DNA of 40,689 bases from Comamonadaceae bacterium. Its GTDB lineage: Bacteria; Pseudomonadota; Gammaproteobacteria; Burkholderiales; Burkholderiaceae_C. Position 1 is the stretch's first letter. The number at the start of each line of letters is the position of its first letter. A program made the translations under genes and the position numbers. The notes beneath the pieces are model-generated. The model saw nothing but the letters and a program-made list of their open reading frames with translations, made no database searches and was not told the DNA's origin. Shown piece after piece: positions 2,300 to 18,571 of this stretch. Where the stretch lies: assembly GCA_008080595.1 (NCBI GenBank), contig VIKI01000065.1, positions 1-40,689 of the forward strand, written 5' to 3'.

Positions 2300-3223
2300 A
2301 TGGCTGGAAGTTTGCTGCTGTTGTTGGACGATATCGCCACGGTGCTGGACGATGTTGCCGTGCTGACCAAAGTGGCCGCCCAAAAAACGGCCGGTGTGCT
2401 GGGGGATGACCTGGCCTTGAATGCCCAGCAAGTTTCAGGTGTCACTGCCGATCGCGAGCTGCCGGTGGTGTGGGCGGTGGCCAAAGGGTCGCTGATCAAC
2501 AAGGCGATTCTGGTGCCCAGTGCGCTGGCGCTCAATGTGCTGGCCCCATGGTCGATCACGCCCTTGCTGATGGCGGGTGGCTTGTTTCTGTGCTTTGAGG
2601 GCTTTGAGAAGCTGGCACACAAGTTCTTGCACAGTGCCAAGGACGAAGCCACTGAACATGCTCAACTGGTCAAAGCCGTCAGCGATGAATCCATCGACCT
2701 GGTGGCTTTTGAGAAGGACAAGATCAAGGGCGCGGTGCGCACCGACTTTATTTTGTCCACCGAGATCATTGTCATCACTTTAGGCACGGTAGCGGCCAGC
2801 TCTTTCCTGACCCAGGTGAGTGTGCTCAGTGGCGTGGCGGTGTTGATGACGGTGGGTGTTTACGGCCTGGTGGCAGGTATTGTCAAGATTGACGATCTGG
2901 GTCTGTACCTGAGCCAGCGCCCAAGCCGTCTGGCGCAAACTTGGCAGCAGGCGGTGGGGCGCAGTTTGCTGCGTGCCGCACCCTTGCTGATGAAGGGCTT
3001 GACCGTGGTCGGCACGCTGGCCATGTTTCTGGTCGGCGGTGGCATTCTGGCGCACGGTTGGCATGCGGTGGGGCAGGGCATTGAGCAGATCAGTGCTGCT
3101 GCCCCAGGCGTTTTGCAGTCGGTGGTCTCGGTGGGTCTGAACCTGGTGGTGGGGCTGGTCGCCGGTGGCATGGCGTTGGCAGCAGTCACCTTGTTTCAGC
3201 GTCTCAAAACCCGGATTTCATAA
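2300..3223 (+). CDS. DUF808 family inner-membrane protein (YedI-like)
   Basis: This 307-residue protein begins MAGSLLLLLDDIATVLDDVA, the hallmark N-terminus of the DUF808 family (E. coli YedI). The next part, KKTAGVLGDDLALNAQQ-like, also fits. Several hydrophobic stretches follow: around residues 70-100, a pair near 155-200, and two more near 240-305 ending in a glycine/alanine-rich helix. An inner-membrane location is therefore likely. The family is widespread and has no established biochemical role. ATG 2300 is preferred over GTG 2297 because CCAGGAG at about 2286-2292 is well spaced and MAGS is the conserved start. Confidence 0.85.
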   Translation: MAGSLLLLLDDIATVLDDVAVLTKVAAQKTAGVLGDDLALNAQQVSGVTADRELPVVWAVAKGSLINKAILVPSALALNVLAPWSITPLLMAGGLFLCFEGFEKLAHKFLHSAKDEATEHAQLVKAVSDESIDLVAFEKDKIKGAVRTDFILSTEIIVITLGTVAASSFLTQVSVLSGVAVLMTVGVYGLVAGIVKIDDLGLYLSQRPSRLAQTWQQAVGRSLLRAAPLLMKGLTVVGTLAMFLVGGGILAHGWHAVGQGIEQISAAAPGVLQSVVSVGLNLVVGLVAGGMALAAVTLFQRLKTRIS

Positions 3224-3280
3224 GTATTTTTGGCCTATAGCGCTTATGGATAAAGCGCAAATAGCTATAAAATAAGTAGC
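3221..3280 (-). repeat. Dispersed intergenic repeat, copy B
   Basis: Read on the minus strand this contains TATAGCTATTTGCGC, a short spacer and TAAGCGCTATAGGCC, matching copy A at 1574-1620 with a few substitutions. It begins at the DUF808 stop codon and fills most of the gap between two convergent genes. No transposase is nearby. Confidence 0.5.
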
Positions 3281-3305
3281 AATGTGTTTCTTGGGGTGGT
3301 CTTGC

Positions 3306-3776
3306 TCAGACCTCGCCACCAAAGTGCTGGGTGAGGTTGTCGATGTATTGTTCCACCATTTTTTCAAACTCGGCTTCCACCACTGGGGCCACCACCATTT
3401 TCATCAAACCGGGTAAGGGCAGGGTCAGCTCACCTTTGGATTTGAAGGTGATGTGGGTTGATTTTTTCTTGTCCACAATCTTCCAGCTGCCCGACACCAG
3501 CGCGTTGCCTTCGCCTTGAACAGGTGTCCAGACCACCGTACCTTTGGCTTTGTCGCTGACATATTTGGACGCGTAAATGGTTTGCAAATTGATTTGGGCC
3601 AGGCCAATTTTCTCCATCTCCCAGCGGTATGCGCCGTCACCCAGATCGACCAGTTGGTCAACCTTGGGGAAAAAACTGGCTGACTTAGGCACGTCGCTCA
3701 GTACCGCAAAGACGCTGGCAAAGTCTGCTTTGACGTTGAATTCGTAGCCCAAATCGATCGTGACGGTGATAGCCAT
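3306..3776 (-). CDS. SRPBCC (START-like) domain protein
   Basis: From ATG 3776, preceded by a TTGGAG ribosome site, this gives 156 residues. An initial strand (MAITVTIDLGYEFNV) is followed by the helix-grip pattern FASVFAVLSDVPKSASFFP, then WEMEKIGLAQINLQ and a long C-terminal helix FEKMVEQYIDNLTQHF. This layout matches coenzyme Q-binding/polyketide-cyclase-like SRPBCC proteins, which enclose a hydrophobic ligand. There is no signal peptide, so it should be cytoplasmic. The ligand is unknown. A longer reading from a TTG at 3818 lacks support. It is convergent with the DUF808 gene and divergent from dusC. Confidence 0.75.
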   Translation of the reverse strand: MAITVTIDLGYEFNVKADFASVFAVLSDVPKSASFFPKVDQLVDLGDGAYRWEMEKIGLAQINLQTIYASKYVSDKAKGTVVWTPVQGEGNALVSGSWKIVDKKKSTHITFKSKGELTLPLPGLMKMVVAPVVEAEFEKMVEQYIDNLTQHFGGEV

Positions 3777-3885
3777 AGGTGTCTCCAAATATGATGAAAA
3801 TTTTTGATGTACGGGCAAGTCAGCAGGCCGTCAAAGTCACAGTCGAGTTTGCCGGGACAATACCGCTCCTTTTCCCTTGAACATT

Positions 3886-4794
3886 ATGACTTTGCTTCTT
3901 GCCCCGATGGAGGGCTTGCTGGACTTTGTGCTGCGCGACATTTTGACCCGGGTCGGCGGGGTGGATCGGTGCGTGTCAGAGTTCATTCGCATCACGGATC
4001 AATTGCTGCCTGATCGCGTGTTTATCCGCGATGTGCCGGAGCTGTTGCAGGGCTGCCAAACGACGGCAGGCGTTCCGGTTCGGCCTCAGTTGCTGGGCTC
4101 TGACGCGCAGTGTCTGGCAGATAACGCGGCAAGCCTGGCGCGTTTGGGGGCCGAGGGGATTGACTTGAATTTTGGCTGCCCGTCACCGGTGGTGAACCGC
4201 CATCGTGGCGGTTCTGCGTTGCTGGAAGAGCCCGAGGTGCTTTACCGCATCGTGTCGGCGGTGCGCCGCGCTGTGCCCCCTCATTTGCCGGTATCGGCCA
4301 AGATGCGTTTGGGGCTGCATGATGATCGCCGGGCCGAAGAATGCGCCTTGGCGATTGAGGCGGCGGGTGCGGGTGAGCTGGTGGTGCACGCCCGGACCAA
4401 GCAAGACGGTTATCGGCCACCGGCGTACTGGGAGCGTATTGCTGATATTGGCGCAGTGGTGCGCCTGCCCTTGGTTGCCAATGGTGAAATCTGGACGGTG
4501 GCCGATGCCCTGCGCTGCCGCGAAGTGTCGGGCTGCCAGAGTTTGATGCTGGGCCGGGGCATGGTGGCCAACCCGGCGCTGGCGCAGGCCATTCGGGCTG
4601 TGGATGCGCGTCGGCAACTGGTGGTGATCCACCTGGATCGGGATCAACAAACCGGGCGACTCAAGCAATGGTTGAACCTGTTGCGGCGGGTTTTTCCGCA
4701 GGCGCAAGAGGCTTTTATGGCGGTGCGAACCTTTCACAACCCTGCCGATGTGGCGAACTGGTTGAGGGTGCAGCGTCTCAATCTTGGGTCTTGA
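3886..4794 (+). CDS. dusC: tRNA-dihydrouridine(16) synthase
   Basis: The 302-residue flavoprotein starts MTLLLAPMEGLLD, as DusC does, and keeps the C-subfamily features EFIRITDQLLP and GCQTTAGVPVRPQLLG. The catalytic cysteine lies in LNFGCPSP (Cys98) followed by the family NRHRGGSALL loop. FMN-phosphate contacts are suggested by VANGEIW and LMLGRG. It reduces U16 of the tRNA D-loop with NADPH through FMN. ATG 3886 is chosen because the family begins at MxxLLAPMEG; an in-frame TTG at 3877 would add three residues. No strong ribosome site is visible. The stop codon lies inside an inverted repeat. Confidence 0.92.
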   Translation: MTLLLAPMEGLLDFVLRDILTRVGGVDRCVSEFIRITDQLLPDRVFIRDVPELLQGCQTTAGVPVRPQLLGSDAQCLADNAASLARLGAEGIDLNFGCPSPVVNRHRGGSALLEEPEVLYRIVSAVRRAVPPHLPVSAKMRLGLHDDRRAEECALAIEAAGAGELVVHARTKQDGYRPPAYWERIADIGAVVRLPLVANGEIWTVADALRCREVSGCQSLMLGRGMVANPALAQAIRAVDARRQLVVIHLDRDQQTGRLKQWLNLLRRVFPQAQEAFMAVRTFHNPADVANWLRVQRLNLGS

Positions 4795-4818
4795 CAGAAT
4801 GTGACCTTGAATTCTGTC
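4793..4818. repeat. Perfect inverted repeat at the dusC stop codon
   Basis: GACAGAAT (4793-4800) and ATTCTGTC (4811-4818) are exact complements separated by ten bases. It overlaps the dusC stop and lies 60 bases before clpS. With no U-tract it is a poor terminator; it could be an operator or a transcript-stabilising hairpin. Confidence 0.4.
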
Positions 4819-4877
4819 GAATCGGTGCCATGTCCTGATGCAGGAGCAGGTGAAGCCGAGCCCGATAGAATGATTTC

Positions 4878-5240
4878 ATGGTCACAAAAACTCCCAAAAT
4901 TAACCCGCCAAAACCACCCAGTGTGGTTGAAGACGACAGCGACGGCACGGTGGTGCTGGAGCGCCGCACCCAGAAAACCGGCCCACCGTCGATGTACCAA
5001 GTGGTCATGCTCAATGACGACTACACACCGATGGAGTTTGTGGTGATGGTGATTCAGGAGTTTTTTGGTAAAGACCTTGAAACGGCGACGCAGATCATGC
5101 TGAAAATTCACCTGGATGGCCGGGGTATTTGTGGTGTGTATTCGCGTGATATTGCCGCTACCAAAGTCGATCAGGTGATGGATGCGGCCAATAAGGCGGG
5201 GCATCCCCTGCAATGTGTCAGTGAACCAGTTCCAACCTGA
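4878..5240 (+). CDS. clpS: ATP-dependent Clp protease adaptor ClpS
   Basis: The 120-residue product has a disordered proline-rich N-terminus (residues 1-35), which engages ClpA, then the ClpS fold. [16 protein letters not shown] (residues 40-55) carries the acidic pocket that holds N-end-rule amino termini. [18 protein letters not shown] and the last strands complete the fold. ClpS delivers substrates with destabilising N-terminal residues to ClpAP and diverts ClpA from other substrates. It lies directly upstream of clpA, as in most proteobacteria. A possible -10 (TAGAAT) sits just before the start. Its partner gene is frameshifted here. Confidence 0.96.
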
Positions 5241-5324: not shown

Positions 5325-5819
5325 ATGATTGCCCAAGAACTGGAAGTCAGCCTTCACATGGCGTTTGTCGAGGCGCGTCAACAGCGCCATGAATTCATCA
5401 CTGTGGAGCATTTATTGCTTGCCCTGCTGGACAACCCCAGCGCTGCCGAGGTACTGCGTGCCTGTTCGGCCAATATCGATGACCTGCGCAAGTCGCTGGT
5501 CACTTTCATCAAAGACAACACACCGCAAGTGGCTGGCAATGAGGATGTGGATACGCAACCCACCTTGGGTTTTCAACGGGTGATTCAGCGCGCCATCATG
5601 CATGTGCAGTCTACCGGCAGTGGCAAAAAAGAAGTCACTGGGGCCAACGTTTTGGTGGCCATTTTTGGTGAAAAAGACTCGCATGCCGTCTACTACCTGC
5701 ACCAGCAGGGTGTGACGCGGTTGGATGTGGTCAATTTCATTGCCCACGGCATCAAAAAGAGCGATCCGCCACCCAAAATCTCAATCAACTGGCCAAAGAC
5801 GGCAAGATTGATCCCTTGA
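5325..5819 (+). CDS. clpA: ClpA, N-terminal fragment (frameshifted gene, part 1)
   Basis: This frame encodes the Clp N-domain: two related helical repeats starting MIAQELEVSLHMAFVEARQ and QRVIQRAIMH, up to VVNFIAHGIKKSDPP. It then runs 17 codons out of frame to a TGA at 5817-5819. In intact ClpA the N-domain connects through a flexible linker of roughly 25 residues to TxNLNQLA. Here NLNQLAKDGKIDPLIGRE follows in another frame almost at once (from about 5771), so the linker is missing as well as the frame. A ribosome site (AAAAGGAT) precedes ATG 5325. Alone this piece would be the ClpS-binding domain without an ATPase. Confidence 0.85.
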   Translation: MIAQELEVSLHMAFVEARQQRHEFITVEHLLLALLDNPSAAEVLRACSANIDDLRKSLVTFIKDNTPQVAGNEDVDTQPTLGFQRVIQRAIMHVQSTGSGKKEVTGANVLVAIFGEKDSHAVYYLHQQGVTRLDVVNFIAHGIKKSDPPPKISINWPKTARLIP

Positions 5820-7564
5820 TCGGGCGTGAGTACGAGGTGGAGCGGGTCATCCAAATCCTGTGCCGTCGCCGTAAAAACAACCCGTTGCTGGTGGGTGAGG
5901 CTGGCGTGGGAAAAACGGCCATTGCCGAAGGCTTGGCCTGGCGCATCACGCAAAAGGCGGTGCCAGAGATTTTGGCTGAATCCATGGTTTACTCACTGGA
6001 CATGGGGGCCTTGCTGGCCGGCACCAAGTACCGGGGCGATTTTGAGCAGCGTCTGAAGGCCGTGCTCAAGGCTTTGAAAGACAAACCCAACACGGTGTTG
6101 TTCATTGACGAGATTCACACCTTGATTGGCGCTGGGGCGGCTTCGGGCGGTACGCTGGATGCTTCCAATTTGCTCAAACCCGCGTTGAGCAACGGTTCGC
6201 TCAAATGCATTGGTGCAACCACCTTCACTGAGTACCGGGGTATTTTTGAGAAAGATGCGGCACTGTCGCGGCGCTTCCAAAAGGTGGATGTGGCAGAACC
6301 GACGGTAGAAGAAACGGTTGAAATTCTCAAAGGGCTGAAATCCCGCTTTGAAGAGCACCACAACGTCAAGTACGCCGTGGCTGCTTTGCAAGCGGCGGCG
6401 GAGTTGAGTGCCAAATACATCAATGACCGACATTTGCCGGACAAAGCCATTGATGTGATTGATGAGGCGGGTGCGGCGCAACGGATTCTGACCCCGAGCA
6501 AACGCAAAAAAATCATTACCAAGGCTGAAGTCGAAGAGATTGTGGCCAAGATTGCCCGCATTCCACCGGCCAATGTGTCGAACGATGACCGGGGCAAACT
6601 CAAAACCCTGGAGCGTGATTTGCGCAATGTGGTGTTTGGGCAAGATCCGGCTTTGGACAAATTGTCCTCGGCCGTCAAGATGGCGCGCTCTGGTTTGGGC
6701 AAGGGCGACAAACCGATTGGTTCATTTTTGTTCAGTGGCCCGACCGGTGTGGGTAAAACAGAAGCGGCCAAGCAATTGGCTTACATCATGGGCATTGAGC
6801 TGATTCGCTTTGACATGAGCGAGTACATGGAACAGCACGCAGTCAGCCGCCTGATCGGTGCGCCTCCGGGTTATGTGGGCTTTGATCAGGGAGGGTTGCT
6901 GACCGAGGCCATTACCAAGAAGCCGCATTGTGTGTTGCTGCTGGATGAAATTGAAAAAGCCCACCCGGCTATTTTCAATGTGTTGTTGCAGGTGATGGAT
7001 CACGGCACACTGACCGACAACAATGGACGGAAATCAGATTTCCGCAATGTCATCATCATCATGACCACCAATGCGGGGGCTCAGACCATCAACAAGGCCA
7101 CCATTGGCTTCACCAATCCGCGTGAAGCGGGTGATGAAATGGCCGACATCAAGCGCATGTTCACGCCAGAGTTCCGTAACCGGCTGGATGCCATTGTCAG
7201 CTTCAAGGCGCTGGATGAAAACGTGATTTTGCGGGTGGTCGACAAGTTCTTGTTGCAGCTTGAAACCCAATTGGCAGACAAAAAGGTAGAGGTAACCTTC
7301 ACCGACAAGCTCCGTAAGCATTTGGCCAAGAAGGGTTTTGATCCCTTGATGGGGGCACGACCCATGCAGCGCCTGATTCAGGACACCATTCGCCGTGCTT
7401 TGGCTGACGAACTGCTTTTTGGTCGCTTGATCGATGGTGGGCGCTTGACGGTGGATCTGGACGACCGGGATGAAAGCAAGACCGAAGTCTTGCTGGATAT
7501 TCAGCCCTTGCCGAAAAAAGAAGGCAAGGCCAAACCGGAATCTCAGGAAGCCAGCACTATTTGA
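5816..7564 (+). CDS. clpA: ClpA, AAA+ C-terminal portion (frameshifted gene, part 2)
   Basis: About 582 codons encode both AAA+ modules of the ClpA unfoldase. Walker A1 is GEAGVGKT, with LFIDEIHTL as Walker B. Walker A2 is GPTGVGKT, with LLDEIEKA after it. An IGF loop (ATIGFTNP) for docking to ClpP and a C-terminal MGARPMQRLIQ sensor-2 region complete it. The open frame extends upstream to about 5768 and continues the N-domain of part 1 after a -1 shift. A TTG (5816-5818) overlaps the upstream TGA as TTGA, so reinitiation of a ClpA lacking the N-domain is possible but unproven. The last bases overlap the convergent iron-binding-protein gene by eight bases. Confidence 0.88.
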   Translation: MIGREYEVERVIQILCRRRKNNPLLVGEAGVGKTAIAEGLAWRITQKAVPEILAESMVYSLDMGALLAGTKYRGDFEQRLKAVLKALKDKPNTVLFIDEIHTLIGAGAASGGTLDASNLLKPALSNGSLKCIGATTFTEYRGIFEKDAALSRRFQKVDVAEPTVEETVEILKGLKSRFEEHHNVKYAVAALQAAAELSAKYINDRHLPDKAIDVIDEAGAAQRILTPSKRKKIITKAEVEEIVAKIARIPPANVSNDDRGKLKTLERDLRNVVFGQDPALDKLSSAVKMARSGLGKGDKPIGSFLFSGPTGVGKTEAAKQLAYIMGIELIRFDMSEYMEQHAVSRLIGAPPGYVGFDQGGLLTEAITKKPHCVLLLDEIEKAHPAIFNVLLQVMDHGTLTDNNGRKSDFRNVIIIMTTNAGAQTINKATIGFTNPREAGDEMADIKRMFTPEFRNRLDAIVSFKALDENVILRVVDKFLLQLETQLADKKVEVTFTDKLRKHLAKKGFDPLMGARPMQRLIQDTIRRALADELLFGRLIDGGRLTVDLDDRDESKTEVLLDIQPLPKKEGKAKPESQEASTI

Positions 7565-9622: not shown

Positions 9623-9735
9623 TGAAGGGATCCCTGAACCTGAAGGTTTCGAAAGGACCCGAGGAGACAACCAGAAGAAACCAAAGGTTTCAAAAAAGGT
9701 ACGTAAGTATCTCAGGGTTTTCCCTTGTACTTTAG
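9593..9735 (-). ncRNA. Candidate structured 3' UTR or small RNA downstream of phaP
   Basis: Minus-strand sequence between the phasin gene and the terminator contains a perfect GAAACC-TTT-GGTTTC hairpin (9691-9677), an unpaired GTCTCCTCGGG stretch (about 9668-9658), an AACC-TTCA-GGTT hairpin, and the terminator stem. Unpaired CUCCUC is the form of an anti-Shine-Dalgarno seed in some bacterial small RNAs. No convincing promoter was found just upstream, so processing from phaP mRNA is the simpler idea. It matches no family I can name with confidence. Confidence 0.3.
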
Positions 9736-9837
9736 AGTTGAGTCCCTGAAATTTATTAAAAGTTGATTAAATGACCGGTTATTTGAGGAATTAGCGTTTT
9801 TTTGCTGCAGGTTTTGCAGCGCTTGTGACATTGGCTG

Positions 9838-10308
9838 TCACTGTTTTGAAGTTGGCTTCGGCAACATCGGTGGCTTGTTTGACGGCTTTTTGAACAGATT
9901 CAAGCGCATTGTAACCGCTACCGCTGATTCAGAACCCGCCGGTGCGTTTTGGGCAGCAGAGTCAATCAAACCAGCGAATTTTTCCTGGGCTTCGGTGGCT
10001 TGGCTTTCCAGGGCTTTGGTGAATTCACCGCTGGTGCTGGTCGCAATCTCATACAGGTGACGGCTATAAGCAGCAGTCTTTTCGGCCAAAGGCTGCAACA
10101 GGCTTTGTTGTAAAGCCAACAGTTCTTGGGCATCCTTGACGCTCAGCAAGGCTTTGGCATTTTCACTGGTTTCGTTCAAAGCTGCTTTGGAGGCGCTCAG
10201 GTTCAGTTCAACAATTTTTTCCACGCCTTCAAAGGCTTTGGAGGTCAGGCCCAACAGGGTTTCGACATTGGCTTTTTGTGCAGCAAGAATTTGTTCAACG
10301 GTCAGCAT
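9838..10308 (-). CDS. phaP: Phasin family protein (C-terminus frameshifted)
   Basis: The 156-residue reading starts [20 protein letters not shown] with a helical body rich in Ala, Glu and Leu, typical of phasins that coat polyhydroxyalkanoate granules. The last 24 codons after SESAVAV ([14 protein letters not shown] onward) look unlike a phasin. In the +1 frame the DNA reads [20 protein letters not shown], then an Ala/Lys-rich tail ending AAKKR with a stop at 9791-9793, exactly a phasin C-terminus. Roughly ten residues expected between the two parts are absent, so a small deletion plus frameshift near 9918 is inferred. GGAG lies eight bases before ATG 10308. Two PhaR-like sites lie upstream. 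Confidence 0.85.
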
Positions 10309-10370
10309 ATCAAGTACTCCATGAAGTTAAGTTAAGTGGTATCTGCCCCGTAACTGCGTAAAACTCGCTG

Positions 10371-14842: not shown

Positions 14843-15205
14843 ATGCGAACAGATATGTTTCAACAATCGCTGGAAGACCTTAATGGTTCGACAGCGGACA
14901 TTGAAGCCTCCGCTTTGATTTCTACCGATGGCTTGATGATTGCATCAGCACTGCCGCATGGCATGGATGAAGACCGCATTGGTGCAATGTCTGCCGCTTT
15001 GCTGTCGTTGGGTGAACGTACTGCGCGCGAATTGGCAAGGGGGTCGTTGGAACGTGTTTTGATTCAAGGTGAACGTGGTTACGTGATCATGAGTTCGGCT
15101 GGTCCCGAAGCCGTATTGACTGTGCTGGCCAAGTCCAATGCAAAATTAGGCCTCATTTTCCTCGACATCAAGCGTGCCGCTGAAACGCTGTCTAAATTGA
15201 TTTGA
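14843..15205 (+). CDS. Roadblock/LC7 domain protein
   Basis: The 120-residue protein fits the single Roadblock/LC7 domain: a first helix (MFQQSLEDLNGSTADI), then the strands ASALISTDGLMIASAL, a helix RIGAMSAALLSLGERTARELARG, and strands RVLIQGERGYVIMSS and AVLTVLAKSNAKLGLIFLDI, ending in a helix. Bacterial members such as MglB regulate small GTPases, others act as dimeric scaffolds. No GTPase gene is present nearby. AAGGA seven bases before ATG 14843 favours this start over GTG 14828. It is the first gene of a six-gene run, and its stop touches the PAS gene start. Confidence 0.82.
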   Translation: MRTDMFQQSLEDLNGSTADIEASALISTDGLMIASALPHGMDEDRIGAMSAALLSLGERTARELARGSLERVLIQGERGYVIMSSAGPEAVLTVLAKSNAKLGLIFLDIKRAAETLSKLI

Positions 15206-15711
15206 TGGGGTTATTCATGAGGCTTACCGACATGACTCTACCTGCTGAGCCCTCAAAGCAAAGCAGACTAACTTATTCCGACGGTTCTTCCCGCATCGTT
15301 TATGTGACTGATCATGAGGTGCCCTTTCCACAAGGACGTTTAATCGTCTCAAGCACCGATTTAAATGGCATCATTACCCATGCCAATGATGCTTTTGTTG
15401 AGATGAGTGGGTATTCTCGTGAGGAATTGATTGGTGCGCCACACCATATCCTTCGGCATCCGGATATGCCAAAAGTCGCGTTCAAAGGGCTTTGGGATGA
15501 TGTGGCAATGGGCAAAAAATGGCATGGCTACGTCAAAAATTTGCGAAAGGATGGCTCCTATTACTGGGTATATGCCACCGCTGTGCCTAATATTCGCAAC
15601 GGTATCATTGTGGGTTACACATCAGTGCGTCGGAAACCCTCGCGAACCCGCATCAATGAGCTGATACCACTTTATGAGCAGTGGCTTGCTCAAGAAAGGT
15701 CTGCATCATGA
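15205..15711 (+). CDS. Soluble PAS domain protein, Aer-like
   Basis: The 168-residue product has about 40 polar N-terminal residues followed by one PAS domain. LNGIITHANDAFVEMSGY is its start, LRHPDMPKVAFKGLW its middle, and KNLRKDGSYYWVYATAVP its end. This closely resembles the FAD-binding PAS of the aerotaxis receptor Aer, and R-H-x-D in RHPDMP corresponds to residues implicated there in flavin binding. Unlike Aer it has no membrane segment, HAMP or chemotaxis domain. A free redox or energy sensor is a reasonable inference. ATG 15205 overlaps the upstream stop (TGATG style); ATG 15217 is an alternative. The stop overlaps the next gene as ATGA. Confidence 0.82.
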   Translation: MGLFMRLTDMTLPAEPSKQSRLTYSDGSSRIVYVTDHEVPFPQGRLIVSSTDLNGIITHANDAFVEMSGYSREELIGAPHHILRHPDMPKVAFKGLWDDVAMGKKWHGYVKNLRKDGSYYWVYATAVPNIRNGIIVGYTSVRRKPSRTRINELIPLYEQWLAQERSAS

Positions 15712-16457
15712 CCGTCACCTTTTTGATTGCCCCTGATTTTTCTCCAGAGCGTTTTGCTGGCTGGCATATGCTCAACACCGCTTTGCAACGCCGTTCAGGC
15801 TTTCATCTCCATTTGGTGACACCTGCGACAGCCCACGAGCAATCCGAATTCCTGGCTGCTGGTCAAGCAGACTTGGTGTACGCCAATCCTTTTGACGCGG
15901 TCGACATGATTCGTACCCAGGGCTATGTGCCATTTGCTCGTCCTGCACAGCACTATGACGAGATGGTCATTGCGACAGGAATTGAGTCAGGTGTTGGTGT
16001 CGTTGAAGATTTGCGACCGGGTTGCCGCATTGCAATGACCGAAAATCGTGATGTGAAATTGATTGGATTGCGTCTGCTTGAGCCTGCAGACCTGACAGAG
16101 TCTCAAATTGACTGGGTTCCTGTAGATAGTTATCAGGCTGCTGCGCGCAAAGCCATCAAAGGTGAGGTGGAGGCCGCGTTTTTTCTGGCAGATGCCTACT
16201 CTTCTCTGACCAAGTTGACGCGTAGCCATTTACGTGTTCTGGTTGAGAGCGCTATTCATGATATTTCTCATGTGCTTTTGGCACATCCGCGCATGTCGGG
16301 TCAACTTGCCCCCATCGAAAAAGCATTTTTGGGTATCGGCCAAATGCCAGGTGATGTTGAGCTTTTGGATGCGCTTGGTTTGGTCCATGGATTTGAAGCA
16401 ATGTCCCAGGAGCAGGCCGAGTTCATGATTGACTTGATGGATACCCTGATGGATTGA
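15708..16457 (+). CDS. PhnD-like substrate-binding protein without signal peptide
   Basis: The 249-residue protein shows the two-lobed PhnD/phosphonate-binding pattern. FLIAPDFSPERFAGWHMLNTA comes first, then ADLVYANPFDAVDMIRTQGY in the first lobe, GCRIAMTENRDVKLIGLRLL at the hinge, and VEAAFFLADAYSSL in the second lobe. Exported family members start with a signal peptide; here the fold begins at residue 2, so it should stay in the cytoplasm. No ABC permease or ATPase is adjacent. It may bind a small ligand as the input to the neighbouring PAS and Roadblock proteins. ATG 15708 overlaps the PAS stop. Confidence 0.75.
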   Translation: MTVTFLIAPDFSPERFAGWHMLNTALQRRSGFHLHLVTPATAHEQSEFLAAGQADLVYANPFDAVDMIRTQGYVPFARPAQHYDEMVIATGIESGVGVVEDLRPGCRIAMTENRDVKLIGLRLLEPADLTESQIDWVPVDSYQAAARKAIKGEVEAAFFLADAYSSLTKLTRSHLRVLVESAIHDISHVLLAHPRMSGQLAPIEKAFLGIGQMPGDVELLDALGLVHGFEAMSQEQAEFMIDLMDTLMD

Positions 16458-16468
16458 GGTGTAAACAC

Positions 16469-17056
16469 GTGACAACACTTGCATCCAATGACGTTGATCA
16501 GGCACGCAAGGCATTGCGTCGTCATGCACGCAGCATCATGCGTGAGGCCTCCAATGTCAGTGCCCATTTAGGGCGATTGCACGCAGCTTTGACTTTGGCA
16601 GGGTCTGAGCCTGCCCAAGGTGCATTGGCTGACATGTTTGTTGCTTTTGGTGAATCGCAATCTGTTCTAAAGCGAGCCGGACTTGAACTGGCGCGAGATC
16701 GACTGGCCGGTCATGTGCTGCGCTGGTTTGAATCCCAGGTTGAGGCTCCCGCGCTCTATCACATCACACCATTGGCTACGCGATGGAGTGTGCTCGCAAC
16801 ATCCTCTGCGGACATATCTACGCGTGCAAGGCGTTGCAGTGTCGATGATTCTCGGCTGCTGGCTGCCCAAGCCATTGGGGCTATTGAGCGCAAAGACGAA
16901 AAGTCCTTGCAGGAATTCCTTCATCACTGTGTCACATGCCATGATAATTTGGCCTTTATGTTGGCGCGCCGAGCCATGTTACGTACTGGGGTCGAGCTTC
17001 CTCCAGAGTGGGATTTGACCAGTAAGCAGTTGGAGCAATCCATGGAGTTGACATGA
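16469..17056 (+). CDS. Helical protein of unknown function with a CxxCH motif
   Basis: The 195-residue protein is not recognised. Its first half is almost wholly helical (QARKALRRHARSIMREASN, HLGRLHAALTLAGSEPAQ). Near the C-terminus LHHCVTCHDNLAFMLARRAM contains C154-x-x-C157-H158, the form of a haem c attachment site, although no signal peptide precedes it. A zinc or Fe-S ligand set is an alternative. GTG 16469 is preferred, since GAGGTG sits six bases upstream; TTG 16454 is possible. It starts eleven bases after the PhnD-like gene and overlaps the next gene as ATGA, so it belongs to the same operon. Confidence 0.7.
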   Translation: MTTLASNDVDQARKALRRHARSIMREASNVSAHLGRLHAALTLAGSEPAQGALADMFVAFGESQSVLKRAGLELARDRLAGHVLRWFESQVEAPALYHITPLATRWSVLATSSADISTRARRCSVDDSRLLAAQAIGAIERKDEKSLQEFLHHCVTCHDNLAFMLARRAMLRTGVELPPEWDLTSKQLEQSMELT

Positions 17057-17889
17057 AATTGAAAGTGCTGGGCATGTCGGCTAGGGATGCCATTGCTTTT
17101 GACATGTTCATGCAAAAATCCATGACGGGCTGGCATTGGGAGCACCTCCTGGTGGCTTCTACGATGAAATGGGCGGATGCAGATATTTTGGTCGTAGATA
17201 TGGCGGCACACGGTTGGGCTCATGGCAACGATGCCAATTTGGCTCAGTTGAAACAGCTTGTGGGTCAGCAACCTGCTGTGTTGCTCATTTCTGCACAGGA
17301 TCACACTTGGAGTGGGTTAATGTCTGCATGGCATGTTTCCCAGTGGACTTGGTTGGCCAAACCCTATGGTGCTCAGCGCATGCGTGAGGTGCTGACTCAG
17401 ATTAAGAGTACTCAAAATACATCACATCTGAAGGTGTCCTCCATTAGGGAAAAAGTTTTACCTGCCAAGGAAGTTGTCGCTGAAGTTCATGAAGCGATAC
17501 ATTCCAGGATAGCTGGTTCACCGTCTGTATCGACTTTAAGCCCTGATGCCTTGGCTACTCAGCTGTCCCACATGCCACTTGATCGATACACCTTGTTGCG
17601 ACAAATGTTGCATGGCATCCAGACTCAGATTCCTTTCGAGATGCGCTTTACCGTTCAAAATTCATTGATAGTGAACCCCGAAAATGATTGGATTGCAACC
17701 AATACACCCGTACAGGTGATTACACGTGTGTGTGACAGCAATGCCTTGGCCAAGGCTGTGACCGTTCGCGAATTGGATGTAGGTGAGGCGCAAGAGCGAG
17801 CACATCGACTTGGCATGGAGTTTAAAGACCTGGACATTTTTTTACATGAAGTTTTAACGGGTCTAAGCTTGCAGAAGACGGTCGAATAG
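17053..17889 (+). CDS. Degenerate receiver-domain protein with novel C-terminal domain
   Basis: The first ~115 of 278 residues follow the response-regulator receiver pattern: ADADILVVDM with Asp49 at the phosphoacceptor strand, VLLISAQ with Ser80 at the Thr/Ser switch, and WLAKPYGAQRMREVL with the invariant-type Lys103. The acidic pair expected after strand 1 is missing (VLGMSARD), so phosphorylation is doubtful. A linker near residues 120-165 leads to an alpha/beta C-terminal part (LDRYTLLRQMLHGIQ, WIATNTPVQVITRV, LDIFLHEVLTGL) that I do not recognise. The gene overlaps its upstream neighbour by four bases. It may act as a protein-interaction module in the Roadblock/PAS cassette. Confidence 0.68.
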   Translation: MKLKVLGMSARDAIAFDMFMQKSMTGWHWEHLLVASTMKWADADILVVDMAAHGWAHGNDANLAQLKQLVGQQPAVLLISAQDHTWSGLMSAWHVSQWTWLAKPYGAQRMREVLTQIKSTQNTSHLKVSSIREKVLPAKEVVAEVHEAIHSRIAGSPSVSTLSPDALATQLSHMPLDRYTLLRQMLHGIQTQIPFEMRFTVQNSLIVNPENDWIATNTPVQVITRVCDSNALAKAVTVRELDVGEAQERAHRLGMEFKDLDIFLHEVLTGLSLQKTVE

Positions 17890-17935
17890 GTCTTTGGGCT
17901 ATTTTCCACAAGGTAATTTATTCTTTTGATTCATC

Positions 17936-18553
17936 ATGACACACCCTACATCTGACTGGTTCATGTTGACACCTTCAGGTGTCTTACGCGCTTTTAGCTC
18001 GGCTCAACCAGACCCTACGGCACGCTCGATGCAGGTGTTGCTCACCGGTGATTGTGCGCTGGAGCAGGTCAATTGGATGCGTATCGCCGGTCTGGATGCG
18101 CCGCAGATTGCAGAGATGCAAGCACAAGGTTGGGTTCAAGCTCTGTCGCGTCCATTACAAGGACCTGATGCCAAATTAGATGATTTTTTGCAGCATGTCA
18201 TCGCTTCACTGTCAGCTGAGCGTCGAGCGGTGCTGGCCTCACAGGAAGGTTTTTGCCTAGGGCGCAGTGGACTGACTCAAGACGAGGCCGATGTTCTCAG
18301 TGCTGCTGCTGCAGATTTTTCGGAATTTGCTGCGCGTCAATCCAGGCGAGGCTGGCGTGGTGCATCAGGTTATGTGGCTTTCCACTCGGATCCTGAATTT
18401 TTGTTACCAGACCATGCTTTTGTGCCTTTTTGGGTCGACGGTACTGGTTATTGGCTGATTTTGCTTGGTGAACCGCTGCTCAATAGCCCGGCTTTGGTGG
18501 AGTTGCTTTGGGGAATCAAACAAGCCGGAACCAGGTTTTCATCAGGTGGGTAA
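17936..18553 (+). CDS. Divergent Roadblock-like protein
   Basis: The 205-residue protein has an N-terminal part of unknown type (WFMLTPSGVLRAFSSAQ, VNWMRIAGLDAPQIAEM). A C-terminal half follows resembling a Roadblock/LC7 fold: RAVLASQEGFCLGRSGLTQDEADVLSA continues into a helix, then GYVAFHSD, FVPFWVDGTGYWLILLG and a last helix SPALVELLWGIKQAG. The similarity is structural in pattern only and needs a profile search. It is 46 bases downstream of the receiver-like gene and ends in a terminator hairpin, so it is probably the last gene of the cassette that began with a typical Roadblock protein. Confidence 0.65.
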   Translation: MTHPTSDWFMLTPSGVLRAFSSAQPDPTARSMQVLLTGDCALEQVNWMRIAGLDAPQIAEMQAQGWVQALSRPLQGPDAKLDDFLQHVIASLSAERRAVLASQEGFCLGRSGLTQDEADVLSAAAADFSEFAARQSRRGWRGASGYVAFHSDPEFLLPDHAFVPFWVDGTGYWLILLGEPLLNSPALVELLWGIKQAGTRFSSGG

Positions 18554-18571
18554 ACGCTACACCACCTGATG
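18540..18571. terminator. Convergent terminator hairpin
   Basis: CATCAGGTGG (18540-18549) and CCACCTGATG (18562-18571) form a perfect 10-bp stem with a 12-nt loop spanning the stop codon of the last cassette gene. It lies between convergent genes and is followed by TTCATTTACTT on the plus strand. It could stop transcription in both directions. Confidence 0.6.

Follow-up and report, generated by a model that had tools for sequence, protein, structure and literature searches.

A GTPase-less six-gene Roadblock cassette in Comamonadaceae as a probable derivative of Group 3 MglA systems

Results

In a 40,689-nucleotide stretch of DNA from a Comamonadaceae bacterium (contig VIKI01000065.1, positions 1 to 40,689; hereafter the window), we analysed a cassette of six tightly spaced genes on the + strand, A to F, at 14843–18553 (gene coordinates include stop codons). 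Comparison with related loci gives good support to its descent from a Group 3 MglA module, and we favour, with moderate confidence, the reading that the cassette is a derived version of such a module, encoding a sensory complex that would operate without a GTPase and in which proteins B and C would feed signals to the Roadblock protein A; the mechanism is one that we infer. A preliminary description of the same DNA had presented the cassette as having no described counterpart. This has to be withdrawn, since the cassette appears to derive from Group 3 MglA systems, sister loci keep the GTPase, and E is a shortened form of a protein with a receiver, a linker and a C-terminal domain.

A scan of genome contigs with D returned 18 related loci, 15 of which have the complete set of six with the order unchanged, confirming across genera the earlier claim of a conserved multi-gene unit. 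The exceptions are L040, where a contig end falls within C, L027, which has D-E-F only, and L025 (4.4 kb), with D between an incomplete C and an incomplete E. Seventeen of the 18 loci are labelled as Comamonadaceae, Burkholderiaceae, Burkholderiales, Rhodoferax, Polaromonas or Hydrogenophaga, and L025 is labelled as an actinobacterium metagenome-assembled genome (MAG). Surroundings vary between groups of loci while the cassette is unchanged, and recurring flanking clusters track the genome neighbourhood. Five loci bear two labels each (L019/L028, L020/L031, L021/L033, L026/L074 and L027/L077). Two diverged cassette copies, L020 and L021, occur in one MAG, G014, possibly a strain mixture. The Hydrogenophaga MAG G481 (L027/L077) has D-E-F without A-B-C, and its congener G589 has A.

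Nine more distant D matches from the family (L063–L071) were taken as sister loci, and a tenth, still more distant (L072), was read with them. In eight of the nine (L063, L064, L066–L071) a small Ras-like (MglA-like) GTPase is encoded between E and F. The order is A-B-C-D-E-GTPase-F in L064 and L066–L071, and the same without B and C in L063; L065 reads A-B-C-D-F, lacking both E and the GTPase, and L072 reads D-E-GTPase-F-A-B-C. In the eight sister loci with a GTPase, its gene of about 540 bp lies where the window has an E-F junction of 46 bp (17890–17935, + strand). Nine aligned GTPases, including that of L072, share a P-loop GPVG[AS]GKT, a TPGQ motif, a G4 motif without lysine, and DAR. In L072 the C gene is broken (3389–5191) by an insertion carrying an open reading frame (ORF) at 3765–4721, which we take to be transposase-like.

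The module is wider than the family. A profile of F matched 40 of 369 genomes in a sample of the class, the window's own included, and 20 of the other 39 neighbourhoods were read. In these loci, from other orders of the class, the usual arrangement is D-E-GTPase-F-A, often followed by B-C, with the GTPase in 18 of the 20 loci, A in 19, E in 18 and D in 16 (L124 ends at a contig end).

No GTPase is present within the window cassette, as the preliminary description had said, and none was found in its own genome as far as our profile reaches. This profile, built from nine GTPase sequences, reaches Ras, Rab and Sec4 chains in the PDB (best 8e-5) and did better than a phmmer search with one GTPase, which gave no match at 0.001. 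Its best match was at E 0.175 in the own genome, which is just 89% complete, and at 0.208 in G010, a single contig with 100% completeness. Among 11 further window-clade genomes with D, nine, G010 among them, gave nothing better than 0.07; with the own genome, 10 of 12 yield short fragments only, at E 0.07 or worse. The two others, G494 and G014, encode a related GTPase elsewhere in the genome, each beside its own Roadblock gene.

In a tree of A, B, C and F from 28 loci (L020, L025, L027, L034, L037 and L040 excluded as partial or near-copies), with L072 as outgroup, a branch (82/77) separates the 18 GTPase-less loci from the rest, L065 is placed next to this set (89/66), and the eight family loci that have the GTPase group together (87/65). 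A single change on this tree suffices for the GTPase loss in the window clade (bootstrap 82–90), and we infer that the direction of change was loss from a GTPase-bearing ancestor. Judged from these comparisons, both the GTPase and E's C-terminal end have been lost from the window clade (Rhodoferax, Polaromonas, Hydrogenophaga and kin), with the rest kept under selection. Across the class there has probably been more than one such loss, because L128 (6244–10194) lacks the GTPase and keeps a long E, and L138 (7118–8614) retains F and D only, without A, E or the GTPase, which is another kind of reduction.

The second change concerns E (17053–17889, +; 278 aa). Its homologues measure about 430–590 aa in the GTPase-bearing family loci and L072 (the start in L064 is uncertain), and alignment shows that the window protein is without their longer linker and without a conserved C-terminal stretch of 110–125 residues with a basic-hydrophobic end. 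This C-terminal region is missing from all window-clade rows aligned, in which the receiver fold and a linker are present. Pfam gives nothing for E at E<=5. Its N-terminus is predicted to adopt a receiver fold (mean predicted local distance difference test, pLDDT, 83.7) with Foldseek matches to FixJ, KdpE and NtrX at E of about 6e-4, among five matches in all at E<=0.001, in agreement with the earlier label of a degenerate receiver. Asp49 and Lys103 are retained in 20 window-clade rows. The acidic pair that we take to be usual in receivers seems missing, and phosphorylation of E is doubtful for that reason. E is also the fastest-evolving member of the cassette, at 25–67% identity to the window protein.

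We then asked what the remaining genes show. Against the closest relative, G010, the ratio of nonsynonymous to synonymous change (Ka/Ks) is 0.00 for A, 0.04 for B, 0.05 for C, 0.11 for D, 0.22 for E and 0.05 for F, compared with 0.02–0.08 for three flanking genes taken for scale. A has no amino-acid change in 120 codons, with 43% of synonymous sites differing (Ka 0, Ks 0.65). Taken with the conserved gene order, these ratios indicate that the cassette is more than a chance assemblage. They also bear on the possibility that it is a decaying remnant whose other genes have persisted by chance after the loss of the GTPase. Such decay would fit the shortened and fast-evolving E, the reduction of L027 to D-E-F, the absence of E from L065, and a patchy distribution: D was found in 5 of 35 other genomes of the same genus and in none of 24 from other genera, with E in the same genomes. 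A profile of D matched 21 of 299 genomes in the family sample, own genome included, or 20 of 299 after removal of the spurious G682 (a GGDEF protein), and 2 of 399 in the order sample, namely the own genome and the spurious G408 (MarR-like by eye); spurious matches were dropped before counting. We nevertheless regard decay as highly improbable, given Ka/Ks values of this kind, an A gene without replacements, and an order that stays constant across genera and changing surroundings.

A (14843–15205, +; 120 aa) is the most constrained protein of the cassette. It is an MglB-type Roadblock/LC7 protein (Pfam Robl_LC7, PF03259, E 1.2e-17) and the sole PF03259 match at E<=0.001 in its own genome; in the PDB it matches 7f8m (3.9e-28), CvnB5 (6.4e-12) and, distantly, MglB (~1e-3). 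Identity is 93–100% between the window and 15 other loci (alignment A1, 16 rows, with L034, L038 and others excluded). Were A only a regulator of the lost GTPase, its relaxation would be expected; instead it is no more variable, with variation relative to C of 0.21 in 15 GTPase-less loci against 0.33 in six GTPase-bearing ones (L036, L063, L065, L067, L072, L075 and L076 excluded).

As an alternative, the Roadblocks may still regulate an undetected or unrelated GTPase encoded elsewhere, the unit then being an ordinary GTPase-activating protein (GAP)/sensor complex acting in trans. A keeps 63–70% identity to the A proteins of GTPase-bearing modules in five loci from other orders, and G494 and G014 do have a related GTPase gene apart from the cassette. 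On the other hand, a profile that extends to Ras, Rab and Sec4 yields only fragments in 10 of 12 genomes, the C-terminal part of E has been lost in the same clade, and nine positions of A are fixed differently between GTPase-less and GTPase-bearing loci, a difference that does not imply a GTPase contact. We consider regulation in trans unlikely and return to the derived, GTPase-less complex as the preferred reading.

The two putative sensors are encoded directly after A. B (15217–15711, +; 164 aa) is a soluble protein with a single PAS domain (Pfam PAS_3, E 2.9e-16) and no further domain matched; its NCBIfam matches bearing kinase names span the PAS part only. The nearest solved structures to the family profile are PAS domains of the aerotaxis receptor Aer (31cj, 7.5e-42; 8dik, 6.2e-41). 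C (15708–16457, +; 249 aa) belongs to the Pfam family Phosphonate-bd (E 4.7e-39), with a mean column identity of 85% over 18 rows and no match of its profile to the PDB at 1e-5. A signal-peptide-like start is absent from 18 aligned orthologues, judged by eye without a predictor. C as a transporter component was rejected, as it has neither such a start nor a transporter gene as immediate neighbour. The earlier labels of A, B and C agree with these Pfam and PDB results.

The place of B and C beside A is taken by other sensors in some relatives. Among the 20 class loci, B and C stand together after A in eight, protoglobin genes adjoin A in four (L128 6701–7762, L132 6594–7241, L134 7508–8146, L119 7914–8498), and a FIST-domain sensor gene does so in one (L127 5509–7137). 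The protoglobin or FIST gene replaces the PAS and PhnD-like pair, and once accompanies it; in L128 the protoglobin ORF lies between F and A. A sensor gene (B and C, protoglobin or FIST) thus stands beside A in at least 12 of the 19 class loci that have A, a lower bound because the sequence around A was looked at for 15 of the 19 and in some cases on one side only. In open-licence PMC literature, no paper pairing a protoglobin with a Roadblock was found among the matches listed. These neighbours lend indirect support to the redox or ligand sensing proposed in the preliminary description.

The other two proteins are less readily placed. D (16469–17056, +; 195 aa, GTG start) has no significant family match (Pfam, best E 0.1). 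AlphaFold predicts helices throughout (mean pLDDT 76.7), and the L072 homologue alone gives sub-threshold hints of tetratricopeptide repeats (TPR_14 0.017, TPR_19 0.037), so that D is perhaps a worn TPR-like scaffold. The earlier designation as a helical CxxCH protein was right for the window clade, where the motif is invariant in 20 aligned rows, and fails beyond it, since only one of nine GTPase-bearing relatives (L064) keeps CxxCH; D as a c-type haem protein was rejected on this ground. F (17936–18553, +; 205 aa) may be a divergent Roadblock protein, as had been proposed, a label that is plausible and unproven. It matches Robl_LC7 at E 0.0046, below threshold; among 21 members of its family, seven give weak matches at E<=0.1, the best being 0.0022, and its profile finds CvnB5 at 0.03 as best PDB match; mean column identity is 78% in 20 rows. 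Alignments A8 and A9 hold 21 rows each, and A11 and A12 comprise the window and the loci of the related-locus search only.

The layout is compact, with spacings from A to F of +11, -4, +11, -4 and +46 bp. The six ORFs and the terminal hairpin of the preliminary description are real: a stem-loop at 18540–18571 (-19.2 kcal/mol, z -5.1) overlaps the end of F between convergent genes and is a likely terminator, and it is not among the results of a strict terminator scan. Nitroreductase and thioesterase genes lie immediately upstream (Pfam search), and the downstream neighbours are presumably BamC-like and then DapA-like. Pfam and NCBIfam reveal no kinase domain among the six proteins, and no transporter gene is among the immediate neighbours, both as had been stated; genes that we take to be of ATP-binding cassette (ABC) type lie several kb away within the window. 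A single scan of viral contigs with the window C gave no match. Elsewhere in the window, a presumably clpA-like gene (5325–7564) is split, the reading frame changing around 5770 between its N-domain and its first ATPase part, which may reflect a frameshift, a short deletion or an assembly error.

Discussion

Our results outline how the cassette may have arisen and how it might work. The older order was likely D, E (receiver, linker and C-terminal domain), GTPase, F, A, with B and C as optional sensors, and most loci of the window's family now read A-B-C-D-E-GTPase-F. In the derived complex, A would be a dimeric hub and docking site for small sensors. B, from its kinship with Aer, may use a flavin to report the redox or respiratory state, and C may be a cytosolic sensor reporting a small ligand. 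D as scaffold and F as second Roadblock-like partner would hold the complex together, and E, probably a non-phosphorylated receiver, would be the output adaptor. Switching would then proceed by protein-protein contacts and not by a GTP cycle, much as described in the available part of PMC7949163 for MglC with RomR and MglB.

Several observations weigh against this reading. The own genome is incomplete, and G494 and G014 show that related GTPases occur in 2 of 12 window-clade genomes. Clade support in the tree is moderate, and L072 and L065 sit on long branches. Absence of the GTPase does not always go with a truncated E, as L128 demonstrates. D has no significant Foldseek match (best PilF, E 0.33), F and A are related by hhalign with a probability of only 0.9%, and the C-terminal region of the long E proteins has no Pfam or NCBIfam match, its winged helix-turn-helix (wHTH) label coming from PMC4316618.

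We are more tentative about the stronger proposal, which we place somewhat short of even: that a former GTPase regulator has become a stand-alone Roadblock hub, free of any small GTPase, which integrates an Aer-like PAS protein and a cytosolic binding protein, its receiver partner in this lineage no longer having the C-terminal region found alongside the GTPase.

For the output, our best guess by analogy with Group 3 and Group 1 relatives is motility or polarity, for which local support is thin. It may be that the unit and its GTPase-bearing relatives have one output in common (surface motility, polarity or type IV pili being the likeliest), whose target E or F would now contact directly. A shared output of this kind is compatible with the derived complex, and we hold it to be possible but rather doubtful. 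In L072 a bactofilin gene lies upstream of D (9727–10350) and a second gene, which we take to be FimV-like, downstream of C (2301–3392); a presumably FimV-like gene also stands beside A in L136, neither of the two having a Pfam match at 0.001. Neither bactofilin nor FimV-like genes were found near GTPase-less units in the loci examined, and no neighbour recurs across the differing surroundings of those units. In favour of a shared output, PMC11112851 reports that Snodgrassella moves differently by means of its type IV pili when an orphan Group 3 mglB is changed.

MglB-type Roadblocks are understood as regulators of small GTPases. Here a whole operon is without the GTPase, and the Roadblock is its least variable member. 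Among cultured relatives, Polaromonas glacialis (L038) is one in which the role of a Roadblock without a GTPase can be tested. The relatives further suggest that cytosolic sensors are interchangeable in these modules (PAS with PhnD-like, protoglobin or FIST) next to a single Roadblock gene, possibly the input port of the family.

Comparison with known systems

Two of the proteins have counterparts in other systems. The PAS domain of B is like that of Aer, from which B differs as a lone 164-aa PAS protein. C shares its Pfam family with PhnD of phosphonate ABC transporters, and differs in having no signal-like start and no transporter gene as immediate neighbour.

Three further systems share a Roadblock protein or domain. 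The actinobacterial conservon (CvnA-D, AGPS), in which accessory proteins such as CvnF modulate the kinase, one of them by stimulation, according to PMC13343842, has the same MglB-type Roadblock, CvnB5 being a PDB match of A; its CvnA-like histidine kinase domain and CvnD GTPase are not found in the six genes. The MglA/MglB/MglC/RomR polarity module of Myxococcus pairs a Roadblock with a receiver protein in the same way, and differs in that no MglA is detected here and MglB is a distant match of A. MglC is a Roadblock without MglA binding that interacts with RomR and MglB (PMC7949163, in the part available). In HGbRL of Methylacidiphilum, a globin is fused to a Roadblock domain on which the sensor is thought to act (PMC4476040, in the part available). 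The likeness is that of a sensor acting on a Roadblock, with protoglobin genes beside A in 4 of 20 class relatives, and the difference is that HGbRL is a fusion protein outside this operon.

The closest counterpart is the Group 3 MglA system. As described in the accessible portion of PMC4316618, these systems occur in beta- and gamma-proteobacteria, have one or two MglB, an MglA often without the G4 lysine and with DAR, and a partner with a receiver-like N-terminus, a variable linker and a wHTH-like C-terminus. The same portion indicates that no orphan MglB had been characterised at its date, and its signal-transduction section names no PAS, PhnD-like or helical partner. MglC and the Snodgrassella orphan MglB have been studied since, and both hosts also have MglA (PMC7949163, PMC11112851, each in the part available). 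The cassette shares with Group 3 the Roadblock A, the receiver-like N-terminus of E, the operon make-up and the host range, and the sister-locus GTPases fit the motifs; in the window clade the GTPase is absent and E is shortened. A Roadblock (clear for A, weak for F) and a beta/gamma host are thus present, and the GTPase and the C-terminal region of E are not. Because these two defining features fail, the sequence comparisons support well a classification of the cassette as a GTPase-less derivative of a Group 3 MglA system and not as a member of the group.

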